The notes beneath the pieces were generated by a model. The model had not been told where the DNA came from. It ran no database searches and saw only the letters and a program-made list of their open reading frames with translations. 64,000 nucleotides of DNA. Source: Lactobacillus agrestimuris (GTDB lineage Bacteria > Bacillota > Bacilli > Lactobacillales > Lactobacillaceae). The stretch is taken from positions 1 to 64,000 of the forward strand of contig NZ_CALPCQ010000010.1 in assembly GCF_943193025.1 (NCBI RefSeq). Reading direction: 5' to 3'. Positions within the stretch are counted from its first letter, which is position 1. Every line of letters starts with the position of its first letter. Below, piece after piece: positions 25,172-50,853 of this stretch. The position numbers were made by a program, and so were the translations under genes.

Positions 25172-25179
25172 TTAATACC

Positions 25180-34376: not shown

Positions 34377-34528
34377 CTTGCCCTCCTTATAGCAATTAAA
34401 CTTTGTATGTATAGTTTATATCTCAAGTTGTATTTTATCTGGTTTCAATTTGTTTGATAATCTTGGTCAATTTTGCTATTTAATGACACAAAGAAAACAA
34501 AAACGAATATTTCATTACACAAAAAACG

Positions 34529-34582
34529 GCTCTATAATGTTTCCTATTGATGACTTATCTATAGGCGTCAAATAATCTAGTG
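34529..34582. mobile_element. Left end of an ISL3-type element
   Basis: The sequence GGCTCTATAATGTTTCCTAT and what follows to about 34582 resemble an ISL3-family inverted-repeat end and leader. No transposase follows; the IS66 remnant begins within 60 bases. Confidence 0.45.
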
Positions 34583-34631
34583 TATTGAAAAAGCGTGCGA
34601 TTTCAAGTGTTAGTAGAATTCGCGCGCTTTT

Positions 34632-35043
34632 GTGTTCTTTATTTTGAACCGATTGAGAAGCCCTTTATCAGCCAGTCAACCTGCTCATAAGATAAAGCTT
34701 GAACTTCATTCCGAGGCCAGGTCATTTTGCCGTTTTCAAATCTTTTGTAGAGTGGCCAGAATCCTTTCCTTGGCCGTCCCAATAAAGGACTTTAAAGCGA
34801 TCTTTTCTGCCGCCACAGAAGAGGAAAATCTTACCACTAAAAGGATCAAGATCAAACTGTTCTTGGAACAAAGCTCCCAGTCCGGCAATGCCATTGCGCA
34901 GGTCGGTAGTCGGTCTTGCCGCAAACGATATAGACCTGTCCCAAGTCGCTAAGCCTGATCATGTTGCGTTGCTGGCGCAATTTGGATTTCTTAGGTCTTT
35001 CCGGGTGATTGAGTGCCACGATGGGCTGTTGTTTTTCAAGCAT
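34632..35043 (-). pseudogene. IS66-family tnpB (accessory protein) remnant
   Basis: The minus strand reads MIRLSDLGQVYIVCGKTDYR from about 34962, the start of IS66 TnpB (OrfB). After a frameshift it continues FDLDPFSGKIFLFCGGRKDR and FKVLYWDGQG, the family's hallmark stretch. Further shifts and stops follow to about 34640. It is broken and lacks the other IS66 genes. Its GC content is visibly higher than the surroundings, marking it as foreign to this A/T-rich stretch. Confidence 0.8.
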
Positions 35044-35145
35044 AATTTATTTTAACTTCCATAAATTTAATGAGATTAGAATACCTGAAAAATAAGGACA
35101 AAAACAGACACCTGATTATTTGACGCTTACATTAGGTTTGATGAA

Positions 35146-35239
35146 AAAACACGATTCTAAAAAAGCATCAAACTACCATCAAGTAGCTTAATGCTTCTTC
35201 AAAATTATATTTGATTTCTATCGACACCATTGACAAAGA
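35146..35239. mobile_element. Right end of an ISL3-type element
   Basis: The hairpin AAAAGCATCAAACTA ... TAGCTTAATGCTTC and the following TTATATTTGATTTCTATC closely repeat 29517-29598. It ends near TTGACAAAGA. Together with 34529 it frames an ISL3 remnant into which the IS66 piece is nested. Confidence 0.55.
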
Positions 35240-35317
35240 ATAAAAATATATAGACAAAACTATTTTTTCTAATAATGAAACTTAAACACCAATTGCAATA
35301 TTACTATACAGTAAAAA

Positions 35318-36274
35318 CTACATAAAATATTTTTCTTTTGGATAATTATACTCTATATTTTTACCGTTTAATAAATCAAAAAATTTCATAGCAAAGTACA
35401 AATCATGAATTGCAATTCCATAATTATATACTAAGATTCGTTGATCATTATTGGTTCTACCCTCTGCTTTGTTGTTTAAAACATCTGTAATGTTAGTAAC
35501 AGATTTAAATTCATTAAAATATTTAAATCCCTTAATTTGCTCAATTTCATCTGTAAAAACTTTATCAAAAAATACATCACAATTTTGAAATCCCATTGTA
35601 GAAATAGGTACAACGGTTACTCCCTTTTTAAAACATTCATTAGAAGCAAAATTTTCTGTTGCCTTAGTAACAGCTGAAATTACAACATCAGAGTTTGAAA
35701 TAACATCTTCATATGTATCACAAAATACAAATTTAACATTCTTTAAATAAGAAAATTTATTAGCAAATCTTTTTTCTTGATTATGATGCTTATAAAGCTT
35801 AACAGTATAATTTTTTTCTTTATCTAATTTAGCAACCAACGTTTTTAAAAAAACTGTCATAATGTTACCTAAACCAATTAGACCCAAAATTTTAGAATCT
35901 TTTTTAGAAAAAAGTTCAACAGAATGAGCAGCAACTACTCCAGTTCTAAGCGTAGTAATATATTCAGCATCCATAATCCCTTTAAGAATTCCAGTGTCAG
36001 CTTCATAAAGCATAATATCTCCCATCATTGATGAGCGATTTTCTTCTTTTTTTAAATTATGTCTACCAATCATCTTAACTATTGCAAGATTTTCTTTATC
36101 ATAAAGAACTGGCATAACATTATAATAATTATCATTTTCTTGTGTAATCCGTGATTTAGGTGGCATTTCAAAATCTGATTTATTCTTTAGAGCATAATCA
36201 ACCCAATTATACCAATCATTTGGATCGAAATTTGCTGCAAATTCTTTAATGGTTTCAAAATCTATAATTTTCAT
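35318..36274 (-). CDS. Ornithine cyclodeaminase/mu-crystallin family enzyme
   Basis: 318 residues with the Rossmann NAD(P) site KILGLIGLGNIMTVF (near 130) and the family's RTGVVAAHSVELF (near 108). The N-terminal part has MPPKSRITQ and VKMIGRHN, in the positions of the substrate-binding K/R of the family. Members are ornithine cyclodeaminases, alanine or opine-type dehydrogenases and ketimine reductases; the exact reaction cannot be told. It is the last gene of the EPS cluster, 8 bases after the APC permease, and belongs with the LicD module. It probably makes or modifies the amine or amino acid to be attached. Confidence 0.78.
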   Translation of the reverse strand: MKIIDFETIKEFAANFDPNDWYNWVDYALKNKSDFEMPPKSRITQENDNYYNVMPVLYDKENLAIVKMIGRHNLKKEENRSSMMGDIMLYEADTGILKGIMDAEYITTLRTGVVAAHSVELFSKKDSKILGLIGLGNIMTVFLKTLVAKLDKEKNYTVKLYKHHNQEKRFANKFSYLKNVKFVFCDTYEDVISNSDVVISAVTKATENFASNECFKKGVTVVPISTMGFQNCDVFFDKVFTDEIEQIKGFKYFNEFKSVTNITDVLNNKAEGRTNNDQRILVYNYGIAIHDLYFAMKFFDLLNGKNIEYNYPKEKYFM

Positions 36275-36282
36275 TTTTTCCT

Positions 36283-37770
36283 CTATCTATTAAACAAAAT
36301 TGGTAATAAATAAATTGATAATGCAAAAATTGAAACTATTATAGTTATATATTTCCAAATAGCATATTCATGATCAATTTTTACCTTTTCTTTCTTAGTA
36401 GGTTCAGCTATTTGATCCACTTGTTCGGCCACTTGATCTAAATCAACTATATTATTATTCTTCTTAATAAAAATAGCATAAATAATTGATAATATGATAA
36501 TAATTACGGCCGTCGTTAAAGCAATTTGATCAGCAAATATCAACATTACAAGATAAGTAATAACCGTGACAACAACACCCACCATAGCCATTGGAGCCTT
36601 GTACGGGCGTTTCATTTTTGGATATTTTTTTCGCAATCCAACAAATGCCAAACATCCTATGATATAACAAATTGCTAAAGAAACAAATGAAACTGAAGCA
36701 ATATAATTAATTGATCCAGTCAATATCAAAATAATGTTAATAATTCCCACAGTAATAACAGCAATATACGGTGTTTTATATCTTGGATGAATCTTTTCCA
36801 TAAATTTAGGTAAAGCATTATCTTTTGCCATTGCATAAATGTAACGTGCAGGTGCTGCAATGCCTGGATTTATTGTAGATAGATCCCCACCAAAAGCAAT
36901 TCCTATACAGAGAAGAATAAGTGGAAAGCCCGTCATTCCTATAATTTTTAATCCATCAGCATAAGGAGCAGTTGCCGTTGATAAAAATCCATAATATTTA
37001 TGGGAAACTAAACCAACTAAAAACCATTGAAACAATGCATTAACTGCAAAAACTAGAAAAACAGAAATTTTTAATGCCCTTGGTAAAGTATATTGTGGAT
37101 ATTTTGTTTCCGAACCCATTGACACACAAGTTTCAAAACCTGTATAACACCACCAAACTAAACCAAAAATATACATCAACTCTTTAAATGGTGGAAATGA
37201 ATTCATTTCCAAGCCACCGAAATAACTAAGATGAATTCTAGGAATCATATAAAGAAACCAAAGAATTGAACATCCCCAGAAAAAGAAAACGAATGCCGTT
37301 TGTGCTTTTCCTGACATTTCAATTCCCCGATAATTTAATATCAAAAAGGCAATAATTAATAAAACTGCTATTACTCTAGAATCAATTTGGGTGGCCCAAC
37401 TAAATCCAAATTGTTCAAGTAATATCTTAAAATAATTAGCAAATGACAGAGTTTCCCCTGATCCAATAGCAACAACCGAAACAATGTATTGCCACCCGGC
37501 TATATTGGCCCACATTCTATTAAGTCCATATTTAGCATAATTATATGTACCACCTGCTACTGGAATCATCGCCGACATTTCACCATAAAGCAAACACGGC
37601 CAAATAGATATTAATAATGCTCCAAAAGTAAATACAATAATCCATGGCCCAACTTTGCCAATTTGGGCCGAACCGGTTGTAAAAAGCCCTACACCTACAA
37701 CTGTTCCAATTGTCATACTAATAGATTCTTTTAAACCTAATACACGAACAACTTGATTATCTTTTTCCAT
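36283..37770 (-). CDS. APC-superfamily amino acid/amine permease
   Basis: 495 residues with 12 predicted helices, plus a charged cytoplasmic linker between about 425 and 460 and an extra hydrophobic segment at the C-terminus. The helix I motif TIGTVVGVGLFTTG and the CYTGFETCVSMGSET segment are typical of APC transporters. It lies between the nucleotidyltransferase-kinase fusion and the cyclodeaminase-like gene. In classical lic clusters a LicB choline permease fills this role, so this permease probably imports the compound to be phosphorylated. The substrate is unknown. Confidence 0.85.
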   Translation of the reverse strand: MEKDNQVVRVLGLKESISMTIGTVVGVGLFTTGSAQIGKVGPWIIVFTFGALLISIWPCLLYGEMSAMIPVAGGTYNYAKYGLNRMWANIAGWQYIVSVVAIGSGETLSFANYFKILLEQFGFSWATQIDSRVIAVLLIIAFLILNYRGIEMSGKAQTAFVFFFWGCSILWFLYMIPRIHLSYFGGLEMNSFPPFKELMYIFGLVWWCYTGFETCVSMGSETKYPQYTLPRALKISVFLVFAVNALFQWFLVGLVSHKYYGFLSTATAPYADGLKIIGMTGFPLILLCIGIAFGGDLSTINPGIAAPARYIYAMAKDNALPKFMEKIHPRYKTPYIAVITVGIINIILILTGSINYIASVSFVSLAICYIIGCLAFVGLRKKYPKMKRPYKAPMAMVGVVVTVITYLVMLIFADQIALTTAVIIIILSIIYAIFIKKNNNIVDLDQVAEQVDQIAEPTKKEKVKIDHEYAIWKYITIIVSIFALSIYLLPILFNR

Positions 37771-37781
37771 TCTAATACTTT

Positions 37782-39545
37782 CTATAAATGATATCTATTA
37801 ATTACGTATGTTGAATACTTTTCAGCCATTTTTTTCCAATTATAAAGTGATTCCCCCATATTGGCTCCACATGATTCACGATAAACGGCCCAAACGAACC
37901 AATAATAAGCAATAATGGCAACATAAGCTAAATAGTGAAATTCTTTTTCTTCACTATATTCATCACCTAAATACTCTTTAATGAACCTAATGGCATCTTC
38001 AAAATCGTACATCGCATCAACAATATAGTATCCAACATCAATTCCTGGATCAGAATAACCTGCATATTCCCAGTCAATTAGTAAAACATGATCATTAGGT
38101 TCAACCATCCAATTATGACAATAAGTATCACCATGACAAAAACATTTTTTAACACTATCTAGAAGAGTTCGTTTATATAATTTATAAACCTTTTCTTTTA
38201 AAGTCTTATTCTTACTAAATACTTTAGAATCTTTATCTTCTATCAATTTTTCCATGGTTTCAGCATCTTCCCATGGCTTCATTCCATAATCCACTTTCAC
38301 ATCAGCCGAATGTAATCTTCTTAAAACTGGAATAATCTTTTTACTATCTTCAAAGTCATTATATTTTGGCTCTCTAAATTCTGGAATATAACGAGATATT
38401 TTCCATCCTTCAGTAGAGTCCATATAGATGTAAGTCGGATCCACATCAAATTTCTTCGCTATTAGCAATGACTCTTTTTCATTTTTACGATTAACCACCT
38501 TCTCTGTACCAGTTCCTGGATGACGATAAACATAGTCTTCTCCATGAACTCTGAAAACAAAAGAGGTGTTGGTCATCCCTTCTTTTATAGGTCTAAAGTC
38601 AACGATGTCTTCTTCTTCACATCTAAATATTAATTTTATATTACGTAAAATTTGACTATTAGCATGTCCTACAAATTTTTGATCAAAATCTCTTAATTGA
38701 TCAAAATAATCAAATTCAAAAATAGTATTTACAGGATATTCTTTAAAGTAATAATTTGGAAAATTATTTAGATTATCTTTAACTAGCCATTCCCAAAATT
38801 GATTATTATACTTCCCTACTTTTTGATCCGATTCTGCAATTTTTATAAATTTTTGAGAAAATTCATTAGTCCAAAATGTATGTCCTAAAAGGATATCCCC
38901 ACTTGACATAGATTTCTTCATATCAATAATTTTATCTTCATTATCAGTAATTGCATACATTTCATCGGCCTGAGAATCTGATTCATAACCTGCATAAAAT
39001 GAATTATATTCAAATTTATTAAAAGGATTATTTATAAAGTATTGATCACAAGGACAAATATAAGTATTACTAAGTTCATTTTTGGCCAAATATAAACTTT
39101 CAATGTTATTTTTAATATTGTATTGATCATTAATGATTAATTTAACATCATATTTATCTTTAAGATAATAAAACATCTCTTTCTTATAGCCTAAAACAAC
39201 TGTAATATTAGTGATTTCTGCCTCTTTAAGTTGTTTTATTTCTCTTTCGATAAGCCTCTGTCCTCGTACTTCAAACAATCCTTTCGGATATTCTAGTGAA
39301 ATAGGAATAAGTCTTGTTGCAGCACCGGCGGCCATAATCACTGCATTTGTTACCTTATAAGGTTGTAGTTTATTTATTCCTTCATCGGTTATCTTATTAT
39401 TTCTAATTAGACCTTTAGTAATGCAGTTTTGAACTAACTTTTTATTATTTAATACACGTTGAGTTTGCTTATCTAATAAAATAGAAGATCTATTATGCGA
39501 CTTATTATAAAAATAATTTAATAGCTTAAATTCATTAATATCCAT
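37782..39545 (-). CDS. Nucleotidyltransferase-kinase fusion (LicC-LicA-like) with winged helix
   Basis: 587 residues, three parts. Residues ~1-65 form a short winged-helix-like region. Residues ~68-290 are a sugar-nucleotidyltransferase-type domain (VIMAAGAATRLIPISLEYPK), as in LicC, the CTP:phosphocholine cytidylyltransferase. Residues ~310-580 are a choline/ethanolamine kinase-like domain: EGMTNTSFVFRVHGEDYVYR, then CHGDTYCHNWMV and LLIDWEYAGYSDPGID with catalytic Asp and metal-binding motifs. The fusion would phosphorylate a small alcohol and activate it as a CDP derivative. ATG 39545 is chosen, with GGAG 7 bases upstream; a TTG frame start at 39557 overlaps that site. Confidence 0.85.
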   Translation of the reverse strand: MDINEFKLLNYFYNKSHNRSSILLDKQTQRVLNNKKLVQNCITKGLIRNNKITDEGINKLQPYKVTNAVIMAAGAATRLIPISLEYPKGLFEVRGQRLIEREIKQLKEAEITNITVVLGYKKEMFYYLKDKYDVKLIINDQYNIKNNIESLYLAKNELSNTYICPCDQYFINNPFNKFEYNSFYAGYESDSQADEMYAITDNEDKIIDMKKSMSSGDILLGHTFWTNEFSQKFIKIAESDQKVGKYNNQFWEWLVKDNLNNFPNYYFKEYPVNTIFEFDYFDQLRDFDQKFVGHANSQILRNIKLIFRCEEEDIVDFRPIKEGMTNTSFVFRVHGEDYVYRHPGTGTEKVVNRKNEKESLLIAKKFDVDPTYIYMDSTEGWKISRYIPEFREPKYNDFEDSKKIIPVLRRLHSADVKVDYGMKPWEDAETMEKLIEDKDSKVFSKNKTLKEKVYKLYKRTLLDSVKKCFCHGDTYCHNWMVEPNDHVLLIDWEYAGYSDPGIDVGYYIVDAMYDFEDAIRFIKEYLGDEYSEEKEFHYLAYVAIIAYYWFVWAVYRESCGANMGESLYNWKKMAEKYSTYVINRYHL

Positions 39546-39560
39546 ATGTTTCTCCAATAA

Positions 39561-39590
39561 AAAAGCTACAACAACCTGTAGCTTTTTTCT
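39561..39590 (-). terminator. Terminator/attenuator inside the EPS operon
   Basis: AAAAGCTACA pairs with TGTAGCTTTT (10 bp, 7-base loop) followed by T on the minus strand. It lies exactly between the stand-alone nucleotidyltransferase gene and the ribosome site of the fusion gene, so it can limit expression of the last three genes. Confidence 0.75.
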
Positions 39591-40500
39591 ATTTATCTAT
39601 ATAACTAGAATCTAACTGCGCAAGCTCATAATAATTATCAATTTCCATTATATCAGACTTACTACATGGTCTAATTTCGACCTGATAATCTTTAAAATTC
39701 AATTGTAATGGAACCTGCTCCCAAAAGATATCTTTACCATTTTCAGTATTAAAGAATCTTGCCCAATCTCTATTTAACTTTTTACAATCCTCAGGAGTCC
39801 AATAAGAAATACCATAGTAATTCCAACAATAAGTATTTCCTTTTTGATAATTTCTTATATAACCATTATCATCCATTTTAAAGCTCCAGTCGTCAGTTTC
39901 TAATGACCAAGAACCTAAAATATTACTTGCATATTGATACTTAGTAATGATATCTGGATTAGTAATGTAAAGATCAGCTTCACATAAATATGCTCCACCT
40001 ATAAAACTATTTTTTAATAAAATTGCTGAAGAAATATTATTGTATTTATCGTAATTATTATTATCAATAAACTTAATAAATGGATATTTTTTTAACAAAT
40101 CATCAAATTTTTCTTTTTTATAACCTCTAACAATAGTTATATCTTTAATATCTACGGCAACTAATGCATCTAATAAGGTTTCAATAATTCTCTTACCATT
40201 TACTGTAACCATAGGCTTGGGCTTATCATTAGTAGCCGGCATCATACGTGAACCAAAACCTGCTGCTAAAATTACGGCTTTCGTTACTCTATAGGGTTCA
40301 AGAGACAATAATCCTTTACTACTTATTTCTAAATAATCATCTTTTTTATTTATTAGTCCATCTTTTATCATCTCAGAAATATCTTTAGTAATTTCTGTAT
40401 TTGAAATAGTCAATGTATCTGATAACTGTCTATGAGTATATGCGCCTGCTCCATATTTTTCTAAAAATCTAAGTACTTCAAATTTATATTTAGTTAACAT
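39589..40500 (-). CDS. LicC-like nucleotidyltransferase with N-terminal winged helix
   Basis: 303 residues. Residues ~1-65 are a winged helix (YTHRQLSDTLTISNTEITKD), and ~72-295 a nucleotidyltransferase domain with signature AVILAAGFGSRMMPATNDKP (about 75). It is a paralogue of the first half of the downstream fusion; both share the same winged-helix-plus-transferase order. It would activate a phosphorylated headgroup with CTP. Having two copies suggests two different headgroups or a division of labour. GGGGAT precedes the ATG. Confidence 0.85.
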   Translation of the reverse strand: MLTKYKFEVLRFLEKYGAGAYTHRQLSDTLTISNTEITKDISEMIKDGLINKKDDYLEISSKGLLSLEPYRVTKAVILAAGFGSRMMPATNDKPKPMVTVNGKRIIETLLDALVAVDIKDITIVRGYKKEKFDDLLKKYPFIKFIDNNNYDKYNNISSAILLKNSFIGGAYLCEADLYITNPDIITKYQYASNILGSWSLETDDWSFKMDDNGYIRNYQKGNTYCWNYYGISYWTPEDCKKLNRDWARFFNTENGKDIFWEQVPLQLNFKDYQVEIRPCSKSDIMEIDNYYELAQLDSSYIDK

Positions 40501-40578
40501 ATTTTATCCCCAAATAATCAGTAAAGCATGCAGTTCACAATATTTATTGATCAACACAACAGTAACTATCCACAATTT

Positions 40579-41412
40579 TTAGTTAACAGTTTTTTTGTAT
40601 AAGTCAAAGCCATGTTTATTAATTCGTTCCTCAACAGGTGGTAATTTTCTCCAATCACCATATTCGATTGTTAAATATTTATCATAATTCTTAATAACCT
40701 TAAATTTATGACCTTCAAAATCAGCATCAACATAGTGATTAAACCAATTACGAGGAAATACCTTTTTAGCGGCTTTATCATAATTAGCACCAATAGAGAA
40801 ACCAATTGTATCGCTTACAACATCCGTATTCAAAGTATTTAACTTTTCAATCTTATTCACTAAATTATTTCGTAAACTATTTCGATTAGCGTATAAAATA
40901 CTTCTAAATATCTTATGCAATTTAGAATCTTGATTCTTTATTCTATTTCCAGCAAACAATAATCTTAAATTTAAATCAACCTTTTTTAAATACTTAATAT
41001 ATTTATTTTGATTAACTGGAACACTATTTATTGGAAAAATATCTACCCAACTTCCGCCACTATCTTTCATGAACTTAAAATTTGCAACAGTTGTATTATC
41101 TTCTAACTTTAAATATGGATATATATAATTTTCCTCATTATTTTTTTCTTCTGAATACCCATGTAGTATAAAACGACCATTTTTATTAATTTCATCACCT
41201 AATGAAATTAACTTTTTATAATCAACATATGGCATAGCAACGTCAATGTCATCGTCCCATGGAATAAATCCTTTATGCCGTATAGCACCCAATAAAGACC
41301 CAGCATGGAGAGTATACTTTAAATTGTACTTTCTACAAATTTGATCAAAATATACTAATGTTTCAAGTAAAGCTTCTTTTATTTCTATATCATTTAATTT
41401 TTTTAGTGCCAT
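40579..41412 (-). CDS. LicD-family phosphotransferase
   Basis: 277 residues. The LicD hallmark is complete: KYTLHAGSLLGAIRHKGFIP and then WDDDIDVAMP (about 33-62), whose aspartates bind metal. LicD enzymes move phosphocholine or related phospho-groups from CDP donors to glycans. Here the acceptor would be the EPS repeat unit. The ATG at 41412 has AGGA 7 bases upstream and is preferred over 41418. It is the first gene of the decoration module, followed by two nucleotidyltransferases, a kinase, a permease and an oxidoreductase-like enzyme. Confidence 0.88.
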   Translation of the reverse strand: MALKKLNDIEIKEALLETLVYFDQICRKYNLKYTLHAGSLLGAIRHKGFIPWDDDIDVAMPYVDYKKLISLGDEINKNGRFILHGYSEEKNNEENYIYPYLKLEDNTTVANFKFMKDSGGSWVDIFPINSVPVNQNKYIKYLKKVDLNLRLLFAGNRIKNQDSKLHKIFRSILYANRNSLRNNLVNKIEKLNTLNTDVVSDTIGFSIGANYDKAAKKVFPRNWFNHYVDADFEGHKFKVIKNYDKYLTIEYGDWRKLPPVEERINKHGFDLYKKTVN

Positions 41413-41421
41413 TTGCATATC

Positions 41422-42438
41422 CTAATCTCTTTTCATAACCTGCGTTTTAAACAAACCTACAATTTCTCGACGTATTAAATCAATAATTGTAGCAACTATA
41501 TAAATAATAATTGCTATCAGAATCTCGTATATAATAATATATGAGCTATTTTCATATTGCTGTGCTCTAATTATTTTTCCCCACAAAATTGGAAAAAATA
41601 CTGTTTGACAATGAATCAAATAAACAGCAAAAGTCGAAGCGGCAATTGTATTTATAAACTTACTATGTTTTATATCTATATTCTTAAAAATTAAAAATAA
41701 TGATATGCCCGCTATCGCCTCTAATGGACTAGATGTAGTTAAGAATGCACTCCATGATTTTGGCCTAATAATATCTAATATGGTTATAGATAAAATCATT
41801 AAAATTACGGATAAAATAAAAGTTAATATATAATATTTCATATTTGCTTTAGAAAAATCTTCTTTATATTTTTTTATATAACCACCTATAAAATAAATAT
41901 ACAAAAGATTAAATATAGAATTATTGTTAGTGACTACCGTTATATTTTTTAAATATGGTAATAAGGATAACATCACAAATAATATTATAATAAAGATATT
42001 GTATTCTTTTTTATTCATTTCTCTAATAAGTTTATTAGAAAATGGTATTAATATATACATACCGATATATGCTGAAACATACCAATAATTCCCTGTTAAA
42101 ACTGGTAGGAAAGATTTTAAACTAAACTTAAAATTTAGTGGTGCGGTATTAGTAAAGACTAAAATTAAATAAATAGCTATTGAATAAAATAAAGTTAGTC
42201 CCCATATATTTTTTAATGCTCTTCTTTTAAAATTAGATGTACTTAGAAAATAAGCAGATATTAATGTAAAAGCCCATACTCCCATTTCTCCGCCAATCCA
42301 TAAAGATTGAATAGATACTTTATGTGCCAATGGCATCGTTGAATATGAAAATTTGGTTTGCCAAGTAGTATGCCCTAAAACAATCAAAAACATACTGACT
42401 ATTCTTAATAACTCCAAATTTGATAATCTTTTTTTCAT
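41422..42438 (-). CDS. Acyltransferase family 3 membrane protein (O-acetyltransferase)
   Basis: 338 residues with about ten membrane helices. The N-terminal SNLELLRIVSMFLIVLGHTT holds the catalytic arginine and histidine motif (R-x10-H) of the OafA/NodX/WecH group. These enzymes add acetyl or succinyl groups to sugars at the membrane. Placed between Wzx and LicD in the EPS operon, it probably decorates the repeat unit. Confidence 0.85.
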   Translation of the reverse strand: MKKRLSNLELLRIVSMFLIVLGHTTWQTKFSYSTMPLAHKVSIQSLWIGGEMGVWAFTLISAYFLSTSNFKRRALKNIWGLTLFYSIAIYLILVFTNTAPLNFKFSLKSFLPVLTGNYWYVSAYIGMYILIPFSNKLIREMNKKEYNIFIIILFVMLSLLPYLKNITVVTNNNSIFNLLYIYFIGGYIKKYKEDFSKANMKYYILTFILSVILMILSITILDIIRPKSWSAFLTTSSPLEAIAGISLFLIFKNIDIKHSKFINTIAASTFAVYLIHCQTVFFPILWGKIIRAQQYENSSYIIIYEILIAIIIYIVATIIDLIRREIVGLFKTQVMKRD

Positions 42439-42461
42439 TTAAAAACTCCAAAAATATAAAT

Positions 42462-43892
42462 TTAATTCTTTGCTAGCTTTGAGATTAATAAATCCTTAAA
42501 TTGCTTAACTATAGGAGTTCGTAATAATATAAGTAAAAATACATAAACAATAATACCTACAAAAATTTCTAGTAACATCATTAACCATGATTCTTTTAAA
42601 TATCTATTCATCCAGAAGACTACTATAAACATAAGTAATCCTGAAATAAAATATTTCCAAGAACCTTGAAATAATAATTTATAACTTAATGAATGTCTCA
42701 CAACCCATAATTGATACAAAGTTACAGCACATTCAGAAATAACAGTAGACCACATCGCTCCATTAAGTCCCCAAAGCTGAATTAAAGGTACATTTAAAAT
42801 AATATTCACAAAAGCACCCACTGTTACTGATACAGTAAATTGCTTTACTCTATTGAGTGGAAGTAAATACTGAACTCCGATGACATTACTCCAAGCAATC
42901 ATAAGTATAACAATTGCTTCAATCATCATTGCCTTACCCACCGGTTCATACCCTGGCCCATAATACATTGGAGCCAAAGTTAAAGATATTGCTGCAACTC
43001 CAAACATCATTGGATACGCAATCGCAGAAACAAAGTCAAACGATTTATAAAGCATAGCATTAACTTGTTTCATACTTCCTTTGGACACTGCATTAGCAAC
43101 ATGAGGAAGCATAACTGTTCCTGTAGCTGTCACTAAGGCCAAAATCAATTTAACTAAATTATCAGAATATTGATAATAACCAGATGCAGTTTCACTAACC
43201 ATGCCGCCAAGCATAGTCTTATTTAATTGCACATATACTTGGGTAGCAATTTGTGGAATAAATAATTCAATCATTGGTAAAAAATGGGGCCAGGGATTTA
43301 ACGACTTAATATTAATTTTAGGTAAATCTCTTCTAACATTAGGCCATAAGGTTAAATTACCTAATAATGTTGAAACAGCTAAAACTATAATGTATAAAGT
43401 TACATCATTAGGATTTTTAACAAGTAGAAAAATAGCAATCATTGAAACTATCTTTACAAAAGAATTCTTTAGAACTGTAACTTTAAAGTCTTCAATTCCC
43501 TCATAAAACCAAGAAATGTCAAAGGCAACTGCAATTAAATTAATTGATTGTGCCCACATGTAATTTGACTGACGAGTATAAAAAATCATGAAAACTTCAA
43601 ATGCAATACATGCAATTAATGTCATGATCGTTTTAACAATTTGGATTTCCCAAAATGTTTTTGCCATCTTTTTACTATTTTCTCGTACATAAGCTATTTG
43701 TCGATTACCATAATATCCTATACCCATATTAGCAATTAGTATAAAATAATTAATTATAGAATTAGTAAATGCATTTGCACCTACACCTTCTGGACGTAAA
43801 ACACGACTAACATATGCAGAAGTAATAAGCGGAACAATAATTGCAAGAATTTGATATTCTACATTATAAAGATAGTTTTTTATAACCTTCAT
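42462..43892 (-). CDS. wzx: Wzx-type polysaccharide flippase
   Basis: 476 residues with about 12-14 helices of the MATE-like polysaccharide transport fold. It begins NYLYNVEYQILAIIVPLITS, typical of Firmicute Wzx (EpsI/CpsJ-like) flippases. It moves the undecaprenyl-linked repeat unit across the membrane before Wzy polymerisation. It follows glf by 5 bases and the sequence is complete. Confidence 0.9.
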   Translation of the reverse strand: MKVIKNYLYNVEYQILAIIVPLITSAYVSRVLRPEGVGANAFTNSIINYFILIANMGIGYYGNRQIAYVRENSKKMAKTFWEIQIVKTIMTLIACIAFEVFMIFYTRQSNYMWAQSINLIAVAFDISWFYEGIEDFKVTVLKNSFVKIVSMIAIFLLVKNPNDVTLYIIVLAVSTLLGNLTLWPNVRRDLPKINIKSLNPWPHFLPMIELFIPQIATQVYVQLNKTMLGGMVSETASGYYQYSDNLVKLILALVTATGTVMLPHVANAVSKGSMKQVNAMLYKSFDFVSAIAYPMMFGVAAISLTLAPMYYGPGYEPVGKAMMIEAIVILMIAWSNVIGVQYLLPLNRVKQFTVSVTVGAFVNIILNVPLIQLWGLNGAMWSTVISECAVTLYQLWVVRHSLSYKLLFQGSWKYFISGLLMFIVVFWMNRYLKESWLMMLLEIFVGIIVYVFLLILLRTPIVKQFKDLLISKLAKN

Positions 43893-43897
43893 TAGGC

Positions 43898-45007
43898 TTA
43901 ATCACCTAAATTTTCACTAACTGCTTTCAAAGCAGCATCAATCACTTGATCCATGTTGTAATACTTATACTGACCAAGACGTCCACCAAAGATAACTTTA
44001 TCTTGCTTCCTAGCTAATTCAGCATACTTAGTATACAAATCATTATTTCTATCATTATTTACTGGGTAATAAGGTTCATCCCCGCGATGCCAATCAGTAG
44101 GATACTCTCGGGTAATAATTGTTTTATCCTTATCGCCTTTTCCAAATTCAAAATGTTTGTGTTCAATAATACGAGTATAAGGAATTTCAGCTTCAGTATA
44201 GTTAATAACAGCATTACCTTGATAGTTGCCAACGTTCTTTTCTTCAGTTTCAAAGCGAAGTGAACGATATTCTAGTTCACCTAATTTATAATCAAAGAAC
44301 TTATCAATCATACCTGTGTAAACTACTTTATCGTAGTTCTTAAGGTATTCATCCTTCTTATCAAAGAAATCCGTATTTAACTTAACAGTAATGTTAGGAT
44401 TAACTAACATCTTTTCTACCATTTGAGTGTAACCTCCAATGGGAATGCCTTGATAATCATCATTAAAATAGTTGTTATCATAAATTAATCGAACTGGAAG
44501 TCGCTTAATAATGAAAGCAGGAAGTTCAGTGCATTTTCTGCCCCATTGTTTTTCAGTATAACCTTTAATTAACTTTTCGTATATATCTCTACCAATTAAC
44601 GAAATAGCCTGTTCTTCCAAGTTTTGGGGTTCTTTACCTGCCATCTCTTGACGCTGTTCATTAATCCTATCGAGAGCTTCTTGTGGAGTTCTTACTCCCC
44701 ACATTTCGCTGAAAGTATTCATATTGAATGGCAAATTATACATATGTCCTTTGTAATTAGCCACTGGACTATTAGTATAACGATTAAAGTCAGCAAATTG
44801 ATGAACATAGTCCCACACCTTCTTATTAGAAGTATGAAAAATATGGGCACCATATTCGTGAACTTGAATACCATCTACTTCTTTAGTATAAATATTACCT
44901 GCAATGTGATCCCTTTTTTCAATTATTGTTACTTTGTTTCCACGTTTTGCAGCTTCATGGGCAAATACTGCGCCAAACAAACCAGATCCAACTACTAAAT
45001 AGTTCAT
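43898..45007 (-). CDS. glf: UDP-galactopyranose mutase
   Basis: A flavoenzyme that converts UDP-Galp to UDP-Galf. 369 residues begin with the FAD-binding VVGSGLFGAVFAHEAAKRG; further signatures are VHEYGAHIFHTSNKKVWDYV (about 50), GYTEKQWGRKCTELP (about 150) and the C-terminal FGGRLGQYKYYNMDQVI. It supplies UDP-Galf for two GT2 proteins in the same operon, so the polymer very probably contains galactofuranose. GAGGGG precedes the ATG. Confidence 0.96.
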   Translation of the reverse strand: MNYLVVGSGLFGAVFAHEAAKRGNKVTIIEKRDHIAGNIYTKEVDGIQVHEYGAHIFHTSNKKVWDYVHQFADFNRYTNSPVANYKGHMYNLPFNMNTFSEMWGVRTPQEALDRINEQRQEMAGKEPQNLEEQAISLIGRDIYEKLIKGYTEKQWGRKCTELPAFIIKRLPVRLIYDNNYFNDDYQGIPIGGYTQMVEKMLVNPNITVKLNTDFFDKKDEYLKNYDKVVYTGMIDKFFDYKLGELEYRSLRFETEEKNVGNYQGNAVINYTEAEIPYTRIIEHKHFEFGKGDKDKTIITREYPTDWHRGDEPYYPVNNDRNNDLYTKYAELARKQDKVIFGGRLGQYKYYNMDQVIDAALKAVSENLGD

Positions 45008-45020
45008 AATTATATCCCCT

Positions 45021-46319
45021 CTACTTCATATCCTTAGCAAAAAGTAAACTTAGAAATTTCCAAATTATAATTGATAAAATGATTGAAATAATGTCAAATG
45101 CCTCGTAAAACTTATTAGAAAAGAACGAGAAAGCAATACATGGTGCGATAGTTCCACCATAAAACAATTTATAAAAAGGAGCAAAATTATTACTATTTCT
45201 TTTTGCTGCCTTATAGATCCATTGAGATACTGCAGCCATTACAAATATTAATATGGCTACTCCTTTATAACCAAAATCATATAACCATGGATAAAATGTA
45301 GTATAAACGTTTCCCAAGTTATACCCATTTATAAATTGAAATGGTAAATCTAAATTATAAATTGGGATTCTCAACCCGACATGTTTTATAAGGAACAATA
45401 TAATTTTATAAAACGTTTGTTGTCCAAATATATCTCCAACAATAGGAAAATTAGCTGTAGTTATAAATCCATTTAAATTTTTTAGTTCCGCTCCAACATA
45501 TATTGATATATAATCAAACATCCTACTAGAAGCCACATTTCTTCCTACCAATGTGGCTGACCATTGCAAAAGTAAAAGCACAGCTATTACACTTAATATA
45601 ATAATTGATATATACTTTCTATTTTTCTTAGAATTCCAATTACTCTTCCTTTGCTGAATCATTAGCGTAAAAACTGCTAAGCTAATTAATCCGTATATAG
45701 TTCCACCCCTTGAACCACTCAACATGGGACTAAAAATTCCGATCAAGGCTTCTAAAAATAAAATCCAACTGAAATGTTTTTTTAAAGTCAATTCTCTTAT
45801 AAAGAGATATTCTCCCAAAATTCCTACATTCTGATTAAAAGTTTCCATTAACCCGATATACGTAGGTAAAGAGTAATTTACTATTACATAACCATTAGCA
45901 CTTTTATTTATTAGATTTATAGCATTAGAGATATTAGATTGACCAGTTACTCTTTTTATTTCTAATACTATTATTAGAATAAAAAATAATTGTAAAATTT
46001 CAATTCCCAATAATTTTAAATATCCTTTATCTAATAAAAATATTTTTCCAAATTTATTTAGATTTTTTTGAGTAGTTTTTTTGGATAAAAAATCTATTAA
46101 GTAACAAACGATAATGAATTCCAAAATACCTAAGCAAATCACCAAATAAGTTTTTAAATCAAAACTATTACCCCAATTATTAATATTAAGCATTAAAAAA
46201 AATGAAGCAAATAAGAAAGACAAACTAAACAAAAAACTTGGAGAGATCCAATCTTTATGATTTGCAAAATAGGCTACTGCTGTTAGTATTAAAGTTGTAA
46301 AAAATAAATAATATATCAT
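45021..46319 (-). CDS. wzy: Wzy-type polysaccharide polymerase
   Basis: 432 residues with about 11-12 helices and a large extracellular loop between about 255 and 340, typical of O-antigen/EPS polymerases. Sequence conservation is low, as is normal for Wzy. SGSRGGTIYGL near 215 is the kind of short motif seen in these proteins. The ATG at 46319 (MIYYLFF) is preferred; upstream in-frame codons overlap the ribosome site. It sits between glf and a GT2 gene. It would link repeat units outside the cell. Confidence 0.85.
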   Translation of the reverse strand: MIYYLFFTTLILTAVAYFANHKDWISPSFLFSLSFLFASFFLMLNINNWGNSFDLKTYLVICLGILEFIIVCYLIDFLSKKTTQKNLNKFGKIFLLDKGYLKLLGIEILQLFFILIIVLEIKRVTGQSNISNAINLINKSANGYVIVNYSLPTYIGLMETFNQNVGILGEYLFIRELTLKKHFSWILFLEALIGIFSPMLSGSRGGTIYGLISLAVFTLMIQQRKSNWNSKKNRKYISIIILSVIAVLLLLQWSATLVGRNVASSRMFDYISIYVGAELKNLNGFITTANFPIVGDIFGQQTFYKIILFLIKHVGLRIPIYNLDLPFQFINGYNLGNVYTTFYPWLYDFGYKGVAILIFVMAAVSQWIYKAAKRNSNNFAPFYKLFYGGTIAPCIAFSFFSNKFYEAFDIISIILSIIIWKFLSLLFAKDMK

Positions 46320-46340
46320 ATTTGTTTCCAACCTTTGCAA

Positions 46341-47255
46341 CTATTCTTCATCTTCATTTACTTTTTCAATTGTGGGATTAAAAAACATACCTGCAATAGT
46401 TCCTTTCAATTCTGTTTTTATTCTTAAAAACTTATAATTTTTTGAATAAAGTAATACCTTAGTTGGTTCAATAATGCTACATTTTACTATCCATTTTACT
46501 AAATCCTTTTTACTTCTTCTTTTTCGTTCGGTAAATACAGCATTCCTTCTAGAATAATAATACCTACCAATTCTTTTTTTATCAGCTTCAGTAATGATAT
46601 CTACTCCAATGTTACTCTTAATCTTATGCTCTACTATAGAATTATTAACTAAATAACCCTCAAATCCATTTTGAGTAATTCGCAATGTATATTCAACATC
46701 GTCTCCCCAAATAAAATAATCAGTTATTGGTAAACCGATCTTTTCAATAACTTTTCTGGGAAACATAATAGAAACAAATGAAGCATATTCTACTTTGGTT
46801 AATCCTTTATCAGACAATTTATTCCATTCATTAGCTGGTGAGGGAACATTCATTACAGCAGGAGTTCCATCTTTCCATCTAGCATTACTTACTAAAAAGC
46901 CTAAATCATTTATTAAATCAACATTTTTTGTTAGTTCATATAAAGCACTTTCACTAGGAATAGTATCATCATCCATTATCCATACATAATCGGATTTACT
47001 TCTCTTTATAAATTCATGTATTCCGAAGTTAAATCCACCTGCTCCTCCTAGATTTTTATTCATATGAATAGGAACAATCTTAGGAAATTTTTGTGATAGC
47101 TTTTTTAAAAAATTCCACGTATTATCTGTAGAATTATTATCAATGACAAAAATGTTTTCAACTGGATAATTCTGTTTTAATATTGCATGCAAACATTCCT
47201 TTAATAAAGTCAATCTATTAAAAGTTACAACAACACAATCTACTTTTCTTTTCAT
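46341..47255 (-). CDS. Family 2 glycosyltransferase, galactofuranosyltransferase-like
   Basis: 304 residues. GT-A fold starting VVVTFNRLTLLKECL; NKNLGGAGGFNFG (about 68) and VWIMDDDTIPS (about 93) with a DDD motif. The GGxGGxxxG plus W-x-M-DDD combination is typical of GlfT-like enzymes that use UDP-Galf. Together with glf it points to Galf transfer. It is a paralogue of the GT2 at 48420-49304 with the same motifs. Confidence 0.85.
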   Translation of the reverse strand: MKRKVDCVVVTFNRLTLLKECLHAILKQNYPVENIFVIDNNSTDNTWNFLKKLSQKFPKIVPIHMNKNLGGAGGFNFGIHEFIKRSKSDYVWIMDDDTIPSESALYELTKNVDLINDLGFLVSNARWKDGTPAVMNVPSPANEWNKLSDKGLTKVEYASFVSIMFPRKVIEKIGLPITDYFIWGDDVEYTLRITQNGFEGYLVNNSIVEHKIKSNIGVDIITEADKKRIGRYYYSRRNAVFTERKRRSKKDLVKWIVKCSIIEPTKVLLYSKNYKFLRIKTELKGTIAGMFFNPTIEKVNEDEE

Positions 47256-47263
47256 TTTAACAA

Positions 47264-48388
47264 CTACTCACTAATTAATTCTTTTTCCACTCGTTTGGCC
47301 TCAACATCGATATCATATCTCTTTTTTTCAAAATTAGAATGGATTTCATCATTACTTATTCTGCTATGATATTTATGAATCCTTTTAATATCTTCTATCC
47401 AAAGCTTTTTTGAAGTTTCTAAACTTTGAAATGATATATTATTATTTATTGTAATTTCTTCTGGACTTACACGATCAGATGCTAAAATAGGCAATCCATT
47501 GGCCTGTGCTTCAAGTAACGCAACACTTAATCCTTCAAATAAAGATGGGAACAATAACATATCAAATGAACTATACCAGCCGGCCATATCCTTTTTTTGC
47601 CCAACTAATAAAATGTCATTTTGTAATCTACGAGACTTTATTATATTTGTGATTTCTTCTTTATCTTCACCATCGCCTACTAAAACTATTTTAGCATTAG
47701 GAATGAATTTTTTGATTTCGGGTGTTAAACTTATAATAAATTTTTGATTTTTTTGAAAATTTAATCTACCAACATGACCTATTACGAAGGCATCTTGGAG
47801 TCCAAGCTCATGACGAATTCTATTACGTTTTTTATCATCAAACTTGGTTTTATTTATATCAATAGCATTTCTAATGATTTTATAATCTAAGTTATCTGGA
47901 AACATCCATTTTCCTGCAACATTAGAACATGCCCATAAATCTGTTGCATAATTACCAATTTTGGCTCGATTGGCATAATGTAATTTTTTATAAATTTTAC
48001 CTTTAATTCCAGGTATAAATATTTGCGAATTATGACTGTGTACAATAATACGTTTTATATTGTATTTTTTTGCTAACTTAACACTATAAATATTTGATAA
48101 ATCGTTTGCATTAAACCAAAAACTATCATAATTTGATGCTATTTCTTTAAAAAGTTTATCCATCTCTCTATAATACCGAAATGGATTTTTCCCTCTTTTA
48201 GAGGTATAAAATACGTTTCCCCCTAATTTATCTATTTCATCATGATATTCAATAAGATTTGAACTATTGCAAATAAAATCCAAACGTATTTTATCTTTAT
48301 CAAATCGACGATAATAATTCATTATTGCACTTTCCAAGCCACCATGAACTGTTTCATCAGTAAAACCGTATACTAATACTTTATACAT
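47264..48388 (-). CDS. GT4-type glycosyltransferase
   Basis: 374 residues with a GT-B fold. It has the N-terminal block VHGGLESAIMNYYR and a C-terminal domain with GHVGRLNFQKNQKFI, LVGDGEDKEEI and the E-x7-E region LFPSLFEGLSVALLEAQANG. This is the Firmicute EpsF/'glycosyltransferase family 1' type. Retaining transfer of a hexose to the lipid-linked repeat unit is likely; the exact sugar is unknown. Confidence 0.88.
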   Translation of the reverse strand: MYKVLVYGFTDETVHGGLESAIMNYYRRFDKDKIRLDFICNSSNLIEYHDEIDKLGGNVFYTSKRGKNPFRYYREMDKLFKEIASNYDSFWFNANDLSNIYSVKLAKKYNIKRIIVHSHNSQIFIPGIKGKIYKKLHYANRAKIGNYATDLWACSNVAGKWMFPDNLDYKIIRNAIDINKTKFDDKKRNRIRHELGLQDAFVIGHVGRLNFQKNQKFIISLTPEIKKFIPNAKIVLVGDGEDKEEITNIIKSRRLQNDILLVGQKKDMAGWYSSFDMLLFPSLFEGLSVALLEAQANGLPILASDRVSPEEITINNNISFQSLETSKKLWIEDIKRIHKYHSRISNDEIHSNFEKKRYDIDVEAKRVEKELISE

Positions 48389-48419
48389 ATCAATAAAATC
48401 CCTAAAATCTAAATTTTTA

Positions 48420-49304
48420 TTACTCTATATAGTCTATTCTAGGATGAAAATTATGACCATCCTTTGTTCCAATAAATATAGTTGTTAACCTTTGCCATTT
48501 GTGATCTGGAGCCTTACTAATTACACGTTCTATATGCAAGCCTAGTCGTAAATATTGATAAACTTTTTCTTTAAATCCTGCTTCTCTAAATAAAACAACT
48601 TCATTTCTATATGCCAATCTATATCTGTTTATACGTTGAAAATCATCTATAGCTATATTAGACCCTGAATTATTTTTAGTTTTATGAACTACTACACTAG
48701 TATTAACTAAGTAAGATGGATACTTATTAGATATTCTTTGACTATACTCCAAATCGTCCCCCCAAATAAAAAATTCTTTTATTGGAAGGCCTATCTCTTT
48801 AACTACTTCACGTTTCAGATAAAATGATACAAAAGTACCCATTTTAATAGGAACTATTTCGCTATTAAAATCTTCTACCTTCTTTGAAATACTTATTTTT
48901 GGTATATTCATTTTACAGATATTATTATCTATCCACAAAACTTTACTACAAAGGAAACCATAATTACCACCTATCTTTTTATCGATCACTTTAAGATTTT
49001 TCAATGCATCTTTTGTAGGCAAACAATCATCATCCATTAACCAAAAAAACTTATATCCTAGTCTATAGGCTAATTTTATTCCCTCATGAAATCCACCTGC
49101 ACCACCAATATTTTTTCCTGTAGCATGATATATTATTTCATGAGATTTTTCTAAAGATTTTAACATTTCTGAGGTACCATCTGTACTCATGTTATCAATA
49201 ATAATAATATCTACTTTTTCTGTTTGTTCCTTCAACTTCTTAATACATTCGCTTAATAATTTTTTTCTATTATAAGTTACTACAATAGCCGCTGTATCAC
49301 TCAT
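48420..49304 (-). CDS. Family 2 glycosyltransferase, galactofuranosyltransferase-like
   Basis: 294 residues beginning AAIVVTYNRKKLLSECIKKL. It contains GKNIGGAGGFHEG (about 65) and FWLMDDDCLPTKDA (about 92), the same GGAGG and DDD motifs as its neighbour at 46341. Two such enzymes suggest two Galf residues or linkages in the repeat. It follows the DUF4422 gene by 23 bases. Confidence 0.85.
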   Translation of the reverse strand: MSDTAAIVVTYNRKKLLSECIKKLKEQTEKVDIIIIDNMSTDGTSEMLKSLEKSHEIIYHATGKNIGGAGGFHEGIKLAYRLGYKFFWLMDDDCLPTKDALKNLKVIDKKIGGNYGFLCSKVLWIDNNICKMNIPKISISKKVEDFNSEIVPIKMGTFVSFYLKREVVKEIGLPIKEFFIWGDDLEYSQRISNKYPSYLVNTSVVVHKTKNNSGSNIAIDDFQRINRYRLAYRNEVVLFREAGFKEKVYQYLRLGLHIERVISKAPDHKWQRLTTIFIGTKDGHNFHPRIDYIE

Positions 49305-49327
49305 TATATCTTACATACTCCTAATGA

Positions 49328-50113
49328 TTATTTAAAATGTGTTTGCGTACGAATTCCCATTTTCCTTTTTAAAAGAAAAACAGCTTTCTTAAAATTATTT
49401 TTTCCACCCAGCTGTTCCCATTTAACTTCAGTATATCTTTGCTTTGTAGTATCGAGCCATACATCCATAAGAAGTTCAGAAATATAACCAAATACTCTTT
49501 TTTCCTGTACAGAATAATCAGCAATATCAACTCGATTTTCTACTTTCTTCAATACACAAAAAATAAATTCACAATATGAATTAAAGGTATCTCGCTTCAT
49601 CACAAACATGTTAAACATATGCGCTTTCCTTCTTCTCATAATAGTATCAAAAGAAGAAAGATAGTCAGGGTAAAACTCTTTAATCACTTTTCTAGTTTCA
49701 TCTAATGGCTCTTTATGATGTGCATGAATATAATGTGAATAATTAGTCTCAATGTAATAATTTCGTACCTTAGGTAAAATTACATCATACTGCTTTAGTA
49801 AGTCTTCAATTTTTTGAACGTTCATTACATTTTCCAAATTATAAGGCTTAGTATCAAAAAAGAGACGACGATAATGGACCAATCCGATAGCATCAACATC
49901 TTTTAAATTTTTCCAAGCCCAATAAACTGCAGTAAGTTCATTGTAACTTGGATTTTTAAATGAGATGTTATCTCCTTCGTCATCTCTTTGATACTCTATT
50001 CCAGGTTTATAATTTTTAACTGCACCAACTAATACTGGCAAATATCCTTCAGCCTTTGGCATAGGAAATTTTTTATGTGCAGCAACCATTATTACAGTTT
50101 TTATTTTAACCAC
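49328..50113 (-). CDS. DUF4422 glycosyltransferase
   Basis: 261 residues matching DUF4422, a glycosyltransferase family seen in Gram-positive capsule and EPS clusters. Markers are VAAHKKFPMP at the N-terminus, LTAVYWAWKNLKDVDAIGLV (about 70) and HYRRLFFD (about 90). As the first transferase after the priming enzyme it probably adds the second sugar. The donor is unknown. Confidence 0.85.
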   Translation of the reverse strand: MVKIKTVIMVAAHKKFPMPKAEGYLPVLVGAVKNYKPGIEYQRDDEGDNISFKNPSYNELTAVYWAWKNLKDVDAIGLVHYRRLFFDTKPYNLENVMNVQKIEDLLKQYDVILPKVRNYYIETNYSHYIHAHHKEPLDETRKVIKEFYPDYLSSFDTIMRRRKAHMFNMFVMKRDTFNSYCEFIFCVLKKVENRVDIADYSVQEKRVFGYISELLMDVWLDTTKQRYTEVKWEQLGGKNNFKKAVFLLKRKMGIRTQTHFK

Positions 50114-50136
50114 TCAACTTTCCAAATAGGGAATCC

Positions 50137-50790
50137 TTAAAAAGCTCCATCTTTCTTCAAAATGCTGATACAACAAGCAAAGAAAACTTTTACATCATAC
50201 CAATAAGAGGCATTTTCAACATAGCGCAATTCAATATCACAACGTTCTGGATAGCCAATGTTAGCACGCCCACTTGCTTGCCATAAACCTAATGCACCTG
50301 GTTTAACTGATAAAAACTCATTAATTCTATTACCATATTCAACCATTTCTTTTTTTACAATAGGACGTGGCCCTACTAAAGCCATTTCTCCAATTATAAT
50401 ATTTAAAAATTGAGGTATTTCATCTAATGATGTTTTTCTAATAAAAGCCCCTACTTTAGTAATTCTAGGATCTTCGCCTTCCGGCAACTTAAAGCCATTG
50501 TCCACATATTTTTTATACAATTCAGGATTACTTTGCAAAATTTTATCAGCCTGATAAACCATTGATCTAAACTTGAACATACCAAATGGTTTACCATTTT
50601 TTCCGATTCTTATTTGCTTATAAAACGGACTATGACCATCTTGAATAAATATAATAATTGATAAAACTAAAATAAGTGGAGATAATACTACTAAAGCAAC
50701 AGAACTAACTATTATATCCGTAACTCTTTTAAAGAAATGGTATATACGATGAGTATTAATATTCTCACTTACATCTTCTTTATCAATCAT
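50137..50790 (-). CDS. epsE: Undecaprenyl-phosphate sugar phosphotransferase (priming enzyme)
   Basis: About 217 residues: an N-terminal membrane helix (about 22-45) and the bacterial sugar transferase domain with YKQIRIGKNGKPFGMFKFRS, TSLDEIPQFLNI, VGPRPIV and KPGALGLWQASGR. It transfers glucose-1-P or galactose-1-P to the lipid carrier and starts the repeat unit. The small size without the five-helix N-terminal part is the EpsE/CpsE-short form. The ATG at 50790 has GGAG 6 bases upstream; an ATG at 50805 is the alternative. Confidence 0.9.
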   Translation of the reverse strand: MIDKEDVSENINTHRIYHFFKRVTDIIVSSVALVVLSPLILVLSIIIFIQDGHSPFYKQIRIGKNGKPFGMFKFRSMVYQADKILQSNPELYKKYVDNGFKLPEGEDPRITKVGAFIRKTSLDEIPQFLNIIIGEMALVGPRPIVKKEMVEYGNRINEFLSVKPGALGLWQASGRANIGYPERCDIELRYVENASYWYDVKVFFACCISILKKDGAF

Positions 50791-50853
50791 ACTACTCTCC
50801 ATCATAAGATTGTCGTGTCCTCTCTATACAATAATATTTCTTCAATGTTTCTT

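Follow-up and report, generated by a model that had tools for sequence, protein, structure and literature searches.

Phosphocholine and phosphoethanolamine on bacterial surfaces influence host recognition. The lic1 and lic2 loci of Streptococcus and Haemophilus, with LicA, LicB, LicC and LicD, are the nearest described relatives of the locus reported here, which lies in a 64,000-nucleotide stretch of Lactobacillus agrestimuris DNA (the window: positions 1 to 64,000 of contig NZ_CALPCQ010000010.1, contig 10 of a 1.88 Mb genome). In both cases homologues of the kinase, the cytidylyltransferase and LicD form one run at a polysaccharide locus; the window differs by its APC-family permease, by an extra reductase of the ornithine cyclodeaminase (OCD)/mu-crystallin family and by altered residues in the amine pockets. 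A likeness is also seen to phosphonyl tailoring by Pnt enzymes, in which, according to the available portion of the source, a primary-amine compound receives cytidylyl activation near LicD-like genes (PMC6697681). The window differs in that a choline-kinase-like domain would supply the phosphate ester, and no phosphoenolpyruvate mutase was recognized among the ten window proteins scanned, the rest of the genome not having been searched for this enzyme. The module is a genuine and conserved variation on lic-type decoration whose amine is probably primary, its linked reductase belongs to a new OCD subfamily, and its product is probably an unusual charged sugar decoration. It consists of the last five genes of a minus-strand exopolysaccharide (EPS) cluster that runs from ~54.35 kb down to 35.3 kb:

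40579 to 41418, minus strand: LicD-family phosphotransferase, 279 aa (PF04991, 4e-42; NCBIfam NF045866, 88.9 bits, under cut-off)
39589 to 40500, minus strand: stand-alone LicC-like cytidylyltransferase (NTP transferase), 303 aa (PF00483, 2e-12; LicC structure 1jyk, 1e-21; PntC structure 6pd1, 2.5e-12)
37782 to 39557, minus strand: LicC-LicA fusion of an NTP transferase and a choline/ethanolamine-kinase-like domain, 591 aa (PF01633, 6e-16)
36283 to 37770, minus strand: APC-family permease, 495 aa (PF13520, 1.4e-48)
35318 to 36274, minus strand: OCD/mu-crystallin-family reductase, 318 aa (PF02423, 8.8e-29)

From LicD to OCD these genes are separated by 78, 31, 11 and 8 bp, and all five were found where a first-pass annotation of this DNA had placed them. 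A LicA-type kinase, a LicC-type cytidylyltransferase and LicD occur together, as in the lic pathway, with the APC permease in place of a choline permease of the LicB/EamA or BCCT type. Residues 71–292 of the fusion protein match pneumococcal LicC (1jyk, 5e-38) and residues 310–573 match LicA (4r77, 9e-28); 1jyk is also the best match of the stand-alone NTP transferase in the PDB. Both NTP transferase proteins carry an N-terminal extension of ~65 residues that resembles a candidate winged helix. A search of the genome itself returned a single copy of the OCD gene and, as relatives of the NTP transferase, the fusion and its neighbor only. The duplication of the NTP transferase was rejected as a locus-specific trait, since a fused and a stand-alone copy likewise occur together in nine fusion loci of EamA, BCCT or unassigned type.

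The association of the reductase with amine activation emerges from its neighbors in other genomes. A contig scan over one genome per species for 84,980 species, with an alignment of three OCDs, yielded 26 loci; retrieval relied on a pair of short peptide patterns, one containing FKYF and the other W24, and members without both would escape it. Next to the OCD, 22 of the 26 loci (flanks of up to 10 kb) have a route to a cytidylyl-activated phospho-amine, against 0 of 20 control OCD loci (flanks of up to 7 kb; same queries and thresholds), the former count being somewhat favorable because the route queries were chosen from the test loci. The controls are the regions round 20 of the 25 non-window PF02423 matches in 119 genomes of the phylum. 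With these counts, the OCD as a chance neighbor was rejected.

Three routes were distinguished. The first, LicC-LicA, is found in one locus (L024); the second, in which a CobD/HisC-like pyridoxal-phosphate enzyme is fused to an NTP transferase, in nine; the third comprises a class V aminotransferase (11 loci) and a CTP_transf::GFO_IDH fusion (10 loci), one or the other being present in 12. The partners of the last two routes resemble in type the Campylobacter jejuni enzymes Cj1436, which converts serine phosphate to ethanolamine phosphate, and Cj1437, which makes serinol phosphate, as given in the accessible part of the report (PMC12409886). The C. jejuni system differs: its amine is attached through an amide bond, the phosphate is removed, and that part of the report describes no OCD step. 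The CobD-like half of L010 (from Bilifractor), the one tested, scored 185 bits with the threonine-phosphate decarboxylase model, under its cut-off, and by analogy this half fits phosphoserine decarboxylation as by Cj1436. The amine of the CobD-type and aminotransferase routes should, on the same analogy, be primary, and the sole element common to the three routes is plausibly a phosphorylated, cytidylyl-activated amine. Route-positive loci include Bacillota and Prevotella, and the OCD-bearing hosts are mostly gut bacteria. It had been proposed that the OCD enzyme makes the amine from an amino acid; this is not required, since in most sibling loci other genes are present that would suit the synthesis of a simple amino-alcohol, and for the same reason we prefer N-alkylation by opine-type imine reduction to cyclodeamination.

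Whether the gene set is conserved with LicD elsewhere has a different answer for its different parts. The OCD is accompanied by a LicD match in half of its loci (13 of 26) and by a CDP-glycerol-type phosphotransferase or a relative in seven others (20 of 26 in total), and the association with a relative of the window APC permease is narrow (one of 26, L024). L024, from a Lachnospiraceae metagenome-assembled genome (MAG), holds four of the five genes, with identities to the window of 63% (NTP transferase), 67% (LicC-LicA), 71% (APC) and 66% (OCD, over 239 residues, the frame being broken in the record). It has a Glyphos_transf gene and no LicD match within the stretch compared, and carries in addition an Amidohydro_3 gene between APC and OCD and an Octopine_DH gene after OCD.

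Two further observations concern the sibling loci. In Lacticaseibacillus chiayiensis (L034:2-13620, equal to L005), OCD, a DUF1015 protein and an NTP::CobD fusion adjoin accessory-Sec-like genes (Asp1-3, GtfA/B and SecY2, assigned by eye), an arrangement that suggests phospho-amine decoration of an adhesin. The OCD loci L011 and L016 come from MAGs labeled as an archaeon and as Methanobrevibacter and are probably mis-binned bacterial contigs.

LicA-bearing regions without this reductase provide the converse comparison. The fusion query matched 31 other genomes of 295, and wide regions were taken from 17 of these, 14 with the fusion (L067–L080) and four with separate genes (L081–L084); with L108 and L109 from two other genomes of 398, this makes 20 regions. 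None of the 20 showed an OCD or an APC permease related to that of the window. The permease is of EamA/LicB type in seven, BCCT in six and NCS1 type in five, and none was recognized in two (L077 and L080). The generalization that classical lic loci use LicB thus holds for only some of them, BCCT and NCS1-type permeases being common. In G171 (L072), a genome of the same genus, LicD accompanies a BCCT-type set. L108 (3757-15069) represents a further lic-type variant, in which an NCS1-type permease, the LicC-LicA fusion and LicD occur with a CTP_transf::GFO_IDH-like gene nearby and without LicB or BCCT. The window permease, 71% identical to that of L024, scored 99 bits with the NCBIfam ethanolamine permease model TIGR00908, far under the cut-off and not its best match, and we regard it as a putative amine importer. 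In a tree of the kinase domains, the APC and NCS1 kinases form a clade (100/99) apart from the EamA/BCCT group; the tree has a long reference branch, is rooted at the midpoint and leaves out L108 and L109.

Some residues of the amine pockets also point away from choline. Six residues of pneumococcal LicA hold the amine of choline, namely V178, Y197, E213, W251, W254 and Y268 (PMC4364537), and these numbers land on identical letters in our Streptococcus-type reference L081. At 178 and 213 the kinases of the window and L024 carry Y and D, and at 268 either S or A. All 13 EamA, BCCT or unassigned kinases compared retain Y268; at 178 eleven of them have V and two have N, and at 213 twelve have Y and one has S. 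In the five NCS1 kinases Y178 and C213 are constant, and position 268 is F in four and Y in one. In the cytidylyltransferase, the counterparts of LicC D105 and D192 are E104 and E196 in Tde-PntC, an enzyme with a preference for 2-aminoethylphosphonate (AEP), a smaller primary amine (PMC6697681). Positions were mapped by MAFFT alignment and by locating named motif residues in L081. This PntC-type Glu pair replaces D105/D192 in the stand-alone NTP transferases of both the window and L024 and is also present in all eight CobD-fused enzymes compared (of nine loci; L022 omitted). The BCCT-locus enzymes have D/D in five of five compared (of six; L109 omitted), as do those of L077 and of the EamA locus L073, and S/E is found in the EamA loci L071, L076 and L082–L084. 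E192 alone was consequently rejected as a marker of primary amines, and E105 is the telling position. The fused LicC domains have P at 105 in the window and most others, C in L024 and S in the NCS1 loci. The pocket residues, the APC permease where others have EamA, BCCT or NCS1 types, and the linkage of the OCD subfamily to the three routes all support the earlier proposal, in that the amine is probably not choline.

The reductase itself was compared in an alignment of 24 members, the window and 23 of the 26 loci (L022 and L024 have broken frames and L035 runs into a contig end), with 22 other OCDs (the 20 controls, L003 and L004). R71 and G228-F229 occur in 24 of 24 members and in none of the 22 others. 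W24 and FKYF show the same distribution, but both sit in the retrieval patterns; FKYF was rejected as independent proof of the subfamily, the distribution of these two being partly by construction, and the claim of a subfamily is carried by R71 and G228-F229, neither of which was used for retrieval. K67 and R110, which we take to be the carboxylate/imine residues of the OCD family, are present in all 24 members and all 22 others. The protein matches PF02423 with 100.9 bits (curated cut-off 24) and scores under the cut-off with each of the 12 NCBIfam models listed. In a profile search, the nearest PDB chains are pyrroline-2-carboxylate reductase (4e-31) and 4m54 (1e-30), deposited as a putative OCD and presumably SbnB-type, followed by alanine dehydrogenase (4e-25), thiomorpholine-carboxylate dehydrogenase (ketimine reductase; 2e-24) and mu-crystallin (1e-22); the cyclodeaminases for lysine (3e-12) and ornithine (7e-9) are far lower. 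A true ornithine cyclodeaminase that makes the amine was rejected, since the scores with PRK08618, PRK07589 and PRK06823 are all far under cut-off and a different amine route is present at most sibling loci. In the ornithine cyclodeaminase of P. putida the catalytic Asp (Asp228) lies in the C-terminal half.

With imine reductases of the OCD family (SbnB type, pyrroline-2-carboxylate reductase, ketimine reductase/mu-crystallin and archaeal alanine dehydrogenase) the window protein shares whole-length homology and K67/R110; it differs by R71, G228-F229, FKYF and the context of phospho-amine-activation genes. With its carboxylate/imine residues conserved and its partner region rebuilt, it would most simply reduce the imine of an amine and a keto acid, and we interpret it from its sequence as an N-carboxyalkyl (opine-type) imine reductase. 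The controls scoring nearest to the subfamily profile, L102 and L103, have neighbors that resemble, by eye, amino-acid oxidases and a racemase, which fits cyclic-imine chemistry. Close OCDs are rare among relatives: with the window genome counted, they occur in four of 301 genomes of the family at 1e-15, two of these being merely generic (25–26% identity), and, at 1e-22, in two of 395 of the order and three of 398 of the phylum (one at 28% identity). None was found in the 14 other same-genus genomes listed.

Poly-G runs were observed at one site inside the OCD gene in three sibling loci: nine G in L022 and seven in L024 (both at 10225, both out of frame), and five in L010, where the frame is open. 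The site is a candidate phase-variable switch, or else reflects assembly errors; the window OCD is without such a run. Others are found in L024 (671, G8, where a glycosyltransferase frame is split), L017 (3867, G9), L031 (10966 and 14015, G7, one at the 3´ end of OCD) and L021 (4904, G7).

From these results we tentatively put forward, at somewhat below even chances, that the module adds a phosphodiester-linked primary amine derivative to the EPS repeat and that OCD N-carboxyalkylates the amine before LicD attaches it. The APC permease would import a small primary amino-alcohol, most likely ethanolamine, to be phosphorylated by the LicA-like domain, whose family is clear and whose substrate is predicted. 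The stand-alone LicC-like enzyme, with its PntC-like Glu/Glu pocket, would then make the CDP-amine. An alpha-keto acid such as pyruvate would form an imine with the amine nitrogen of either the phospho-amine or the CDP-amine, and OCD would reduce this imine with NAD(P)H to an N-(carboxyalkyl)amine, e.g. N-(1-carboxyethyl)ethanolamine; this direction, as well as the keto acid, we infer from family chemistry and gene context. Finally, LicD, again assigned by family, would transfer the phospho-amine onto a sugar of the EPS repeat, the acceptor being a prediction. A substituent of this kind has been described: the O-polysaccharide of Proteus mirabilis has N-[(R)-1-carboxyethyl]ethanolamine phosphate among its components (PMC9630907), there as chemistry of a Gram-negative O-antigen. 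The EPS may carry an uncharacterized substituent, as suggested earlier, but the Proteus compound is already known. Among the matches listed by word matching in open-access literature (CC0/CC BY/CC BY-SA), there were no genes for N-carboxyethyl-ethanolamine phosphate and no OCD-family gene linked to LicD, phosphoethanolamine or surface-glycan decoration, the only co-mention of 'LicD' and 'ornithine cyclodeaminase' being in a review of protein CoAlation.

A wider generalization is possible, although we hold it with less assurance than the mechanism for the window. The OCD subfamily may be an unrecognized opine-type synthase whose substrates are primary amines in activated form (phosphate or CDP esters of ethanolamine, serinol or the like), supplied by three interchangeable upstream routes. 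Many gut Bacillota and Prevotella would then bear N-carboxyalkyl phospho-amines, with both charges, on their surface glycans, and in some Lachnospiraceae these would possibly be phase-variable through poly-G in the reductase gene. If true, a dedicated enzyme that adds a carboxylate would change the charge of the amine and probably its recognition, there would be a genetic handle on a substituent known from Proteus O-antigen chemistry, and the subfamily residues would allow the modification to be predicted from genomes.

Several points weigh against N-carboxyalkylation of a primary amine, besides the choice of route queries mentioned above. We know of no assayed enzyme of this OCD subfamily and of no glycan structure for any strain with this gene set. 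Y197, W251 and W254 of the choline cage are retained in the kinases of the window and L024, and W136 in the NTP transferase; E192 alone is present in EamA-type enzymes, so that the argument rests on E105; and the NCS1-clade kinases have Y178 yet no OCD nearby. In L076 and L108 a CTP_transf::GFO_IDH gene lies close to LicA with no OCD present. Four OCD loci lack a route. Two of them, L015 and L035, are truncated by the end of their contigs, and the contig of L033 measures only 5 kb, but L014 (5737-12920) is a genuine exception, with a close OCD among GGT, MatE, CobW, ADH and nitrilase genes and possibly in catabolic use. In four loci an Octopine_DH-type gene directly follows OCD (L022, L023 and L024 by PF02317, L031 by similarity), which places two NAD-dependent enzymes of imine/opine type next to each other; it could encode the real N-alkylating enzyme there.

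Among other explanations, the one that fares best is that the substituent of the EPS is phosphoethanolamine itself, or some other primary amine left unmodified, and that the role of OCD is to provide or recycle an amino acid or to reduce an imine unconnected with it. The pocket residues would favor a primary amine with no need of an OCD step, and some members of the OCD family are alanine dehydrogenases or imino-acid reductases. We nevertheless consider this unlikely, as an unrelated supply enzyme would hardly recur beside phospho-amine routes in both Bacillota and Prevotella at the frequency observed, and no gene of amino-acid ligase type was recognized among the ten window proteins scanned.

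A salvage function is more doubtful still. Here the APC permease would import an N-carboxyalkyl amine from which OCD oxidatively frees the amine for phosphorylation and attachment. The OCD-family enzyme SbnB does act oxidatively, APC and OCD adjoin in the window, the Amidohydro_3 gene lies between them in L024, and the OCD of L014 is found among hydrolytic genes. However, 21 of the 22 route-positive loci have biosynthetic-looking route genes and no APC relative found nearby; OCD is thus kept without the importer, which counts against salvage. The least probable reading, an ordinary phosphocholine module with a swapped permease and a hitch-hiking OCD, accords with the clear LicA and LicC homology and the partly retained choline cage but is at odds with E105/E192, the changes in the kinase pocket, the separate BCCT-type set of the same-genus genome and the recurrence of OCD with other amine routes when none of the 20 other LicA-bearing regions has it.

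The surroundings of the module were annotated as follows:

35157 to 35202, minus strand: terminator-like hairpin 3´ of OCD (consensus scan), with only 3–4 G-C pairs
39559 to 39588, strand not assigned: symmetrical hairpin with A- and T-runs between the stand-alone NTP transferase and fusion genes (reported on the plus strand by the scan; the symmetry is visible in the sequence)
41422 to 42438, minus strand: acyltransferase-3-like gene of the EPS cluster, directly upstream of LicD (PF01757, 8e-25)
42462 to 50805, minus strand: EPS cluster with Wzx-, Glf-, Wzy-like, glycosyltransferase and priming-transferase-like genes (the last two labels by eye)

The gap between LicD and the preceding acyltransferase gene is 3 bp, and EpsA-E-like genes (by eye) follow further upstream on the same strand to ~54.35 kb. 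The hairpin 3´ of OCD is the probable end of the operon, and the internal hairpin a possible attenuator within it; the consensus scan of 34400-42600 gave 10 terminator-like sites where 2.4 were expected. The GC content is 26–32% in the module and 25–34% in the variable EPS genes upstream, compared with 37.6–38.6% in epsA-D and 36–37% at 20–24 kb and 56–64 kb. Elsewhere in the window, at 24278-26148, a CBASS-like pair is present, made up of an oligonucleotide cyclase (PDLC00802, 1e-119) and a 4TM effector (2e-34).

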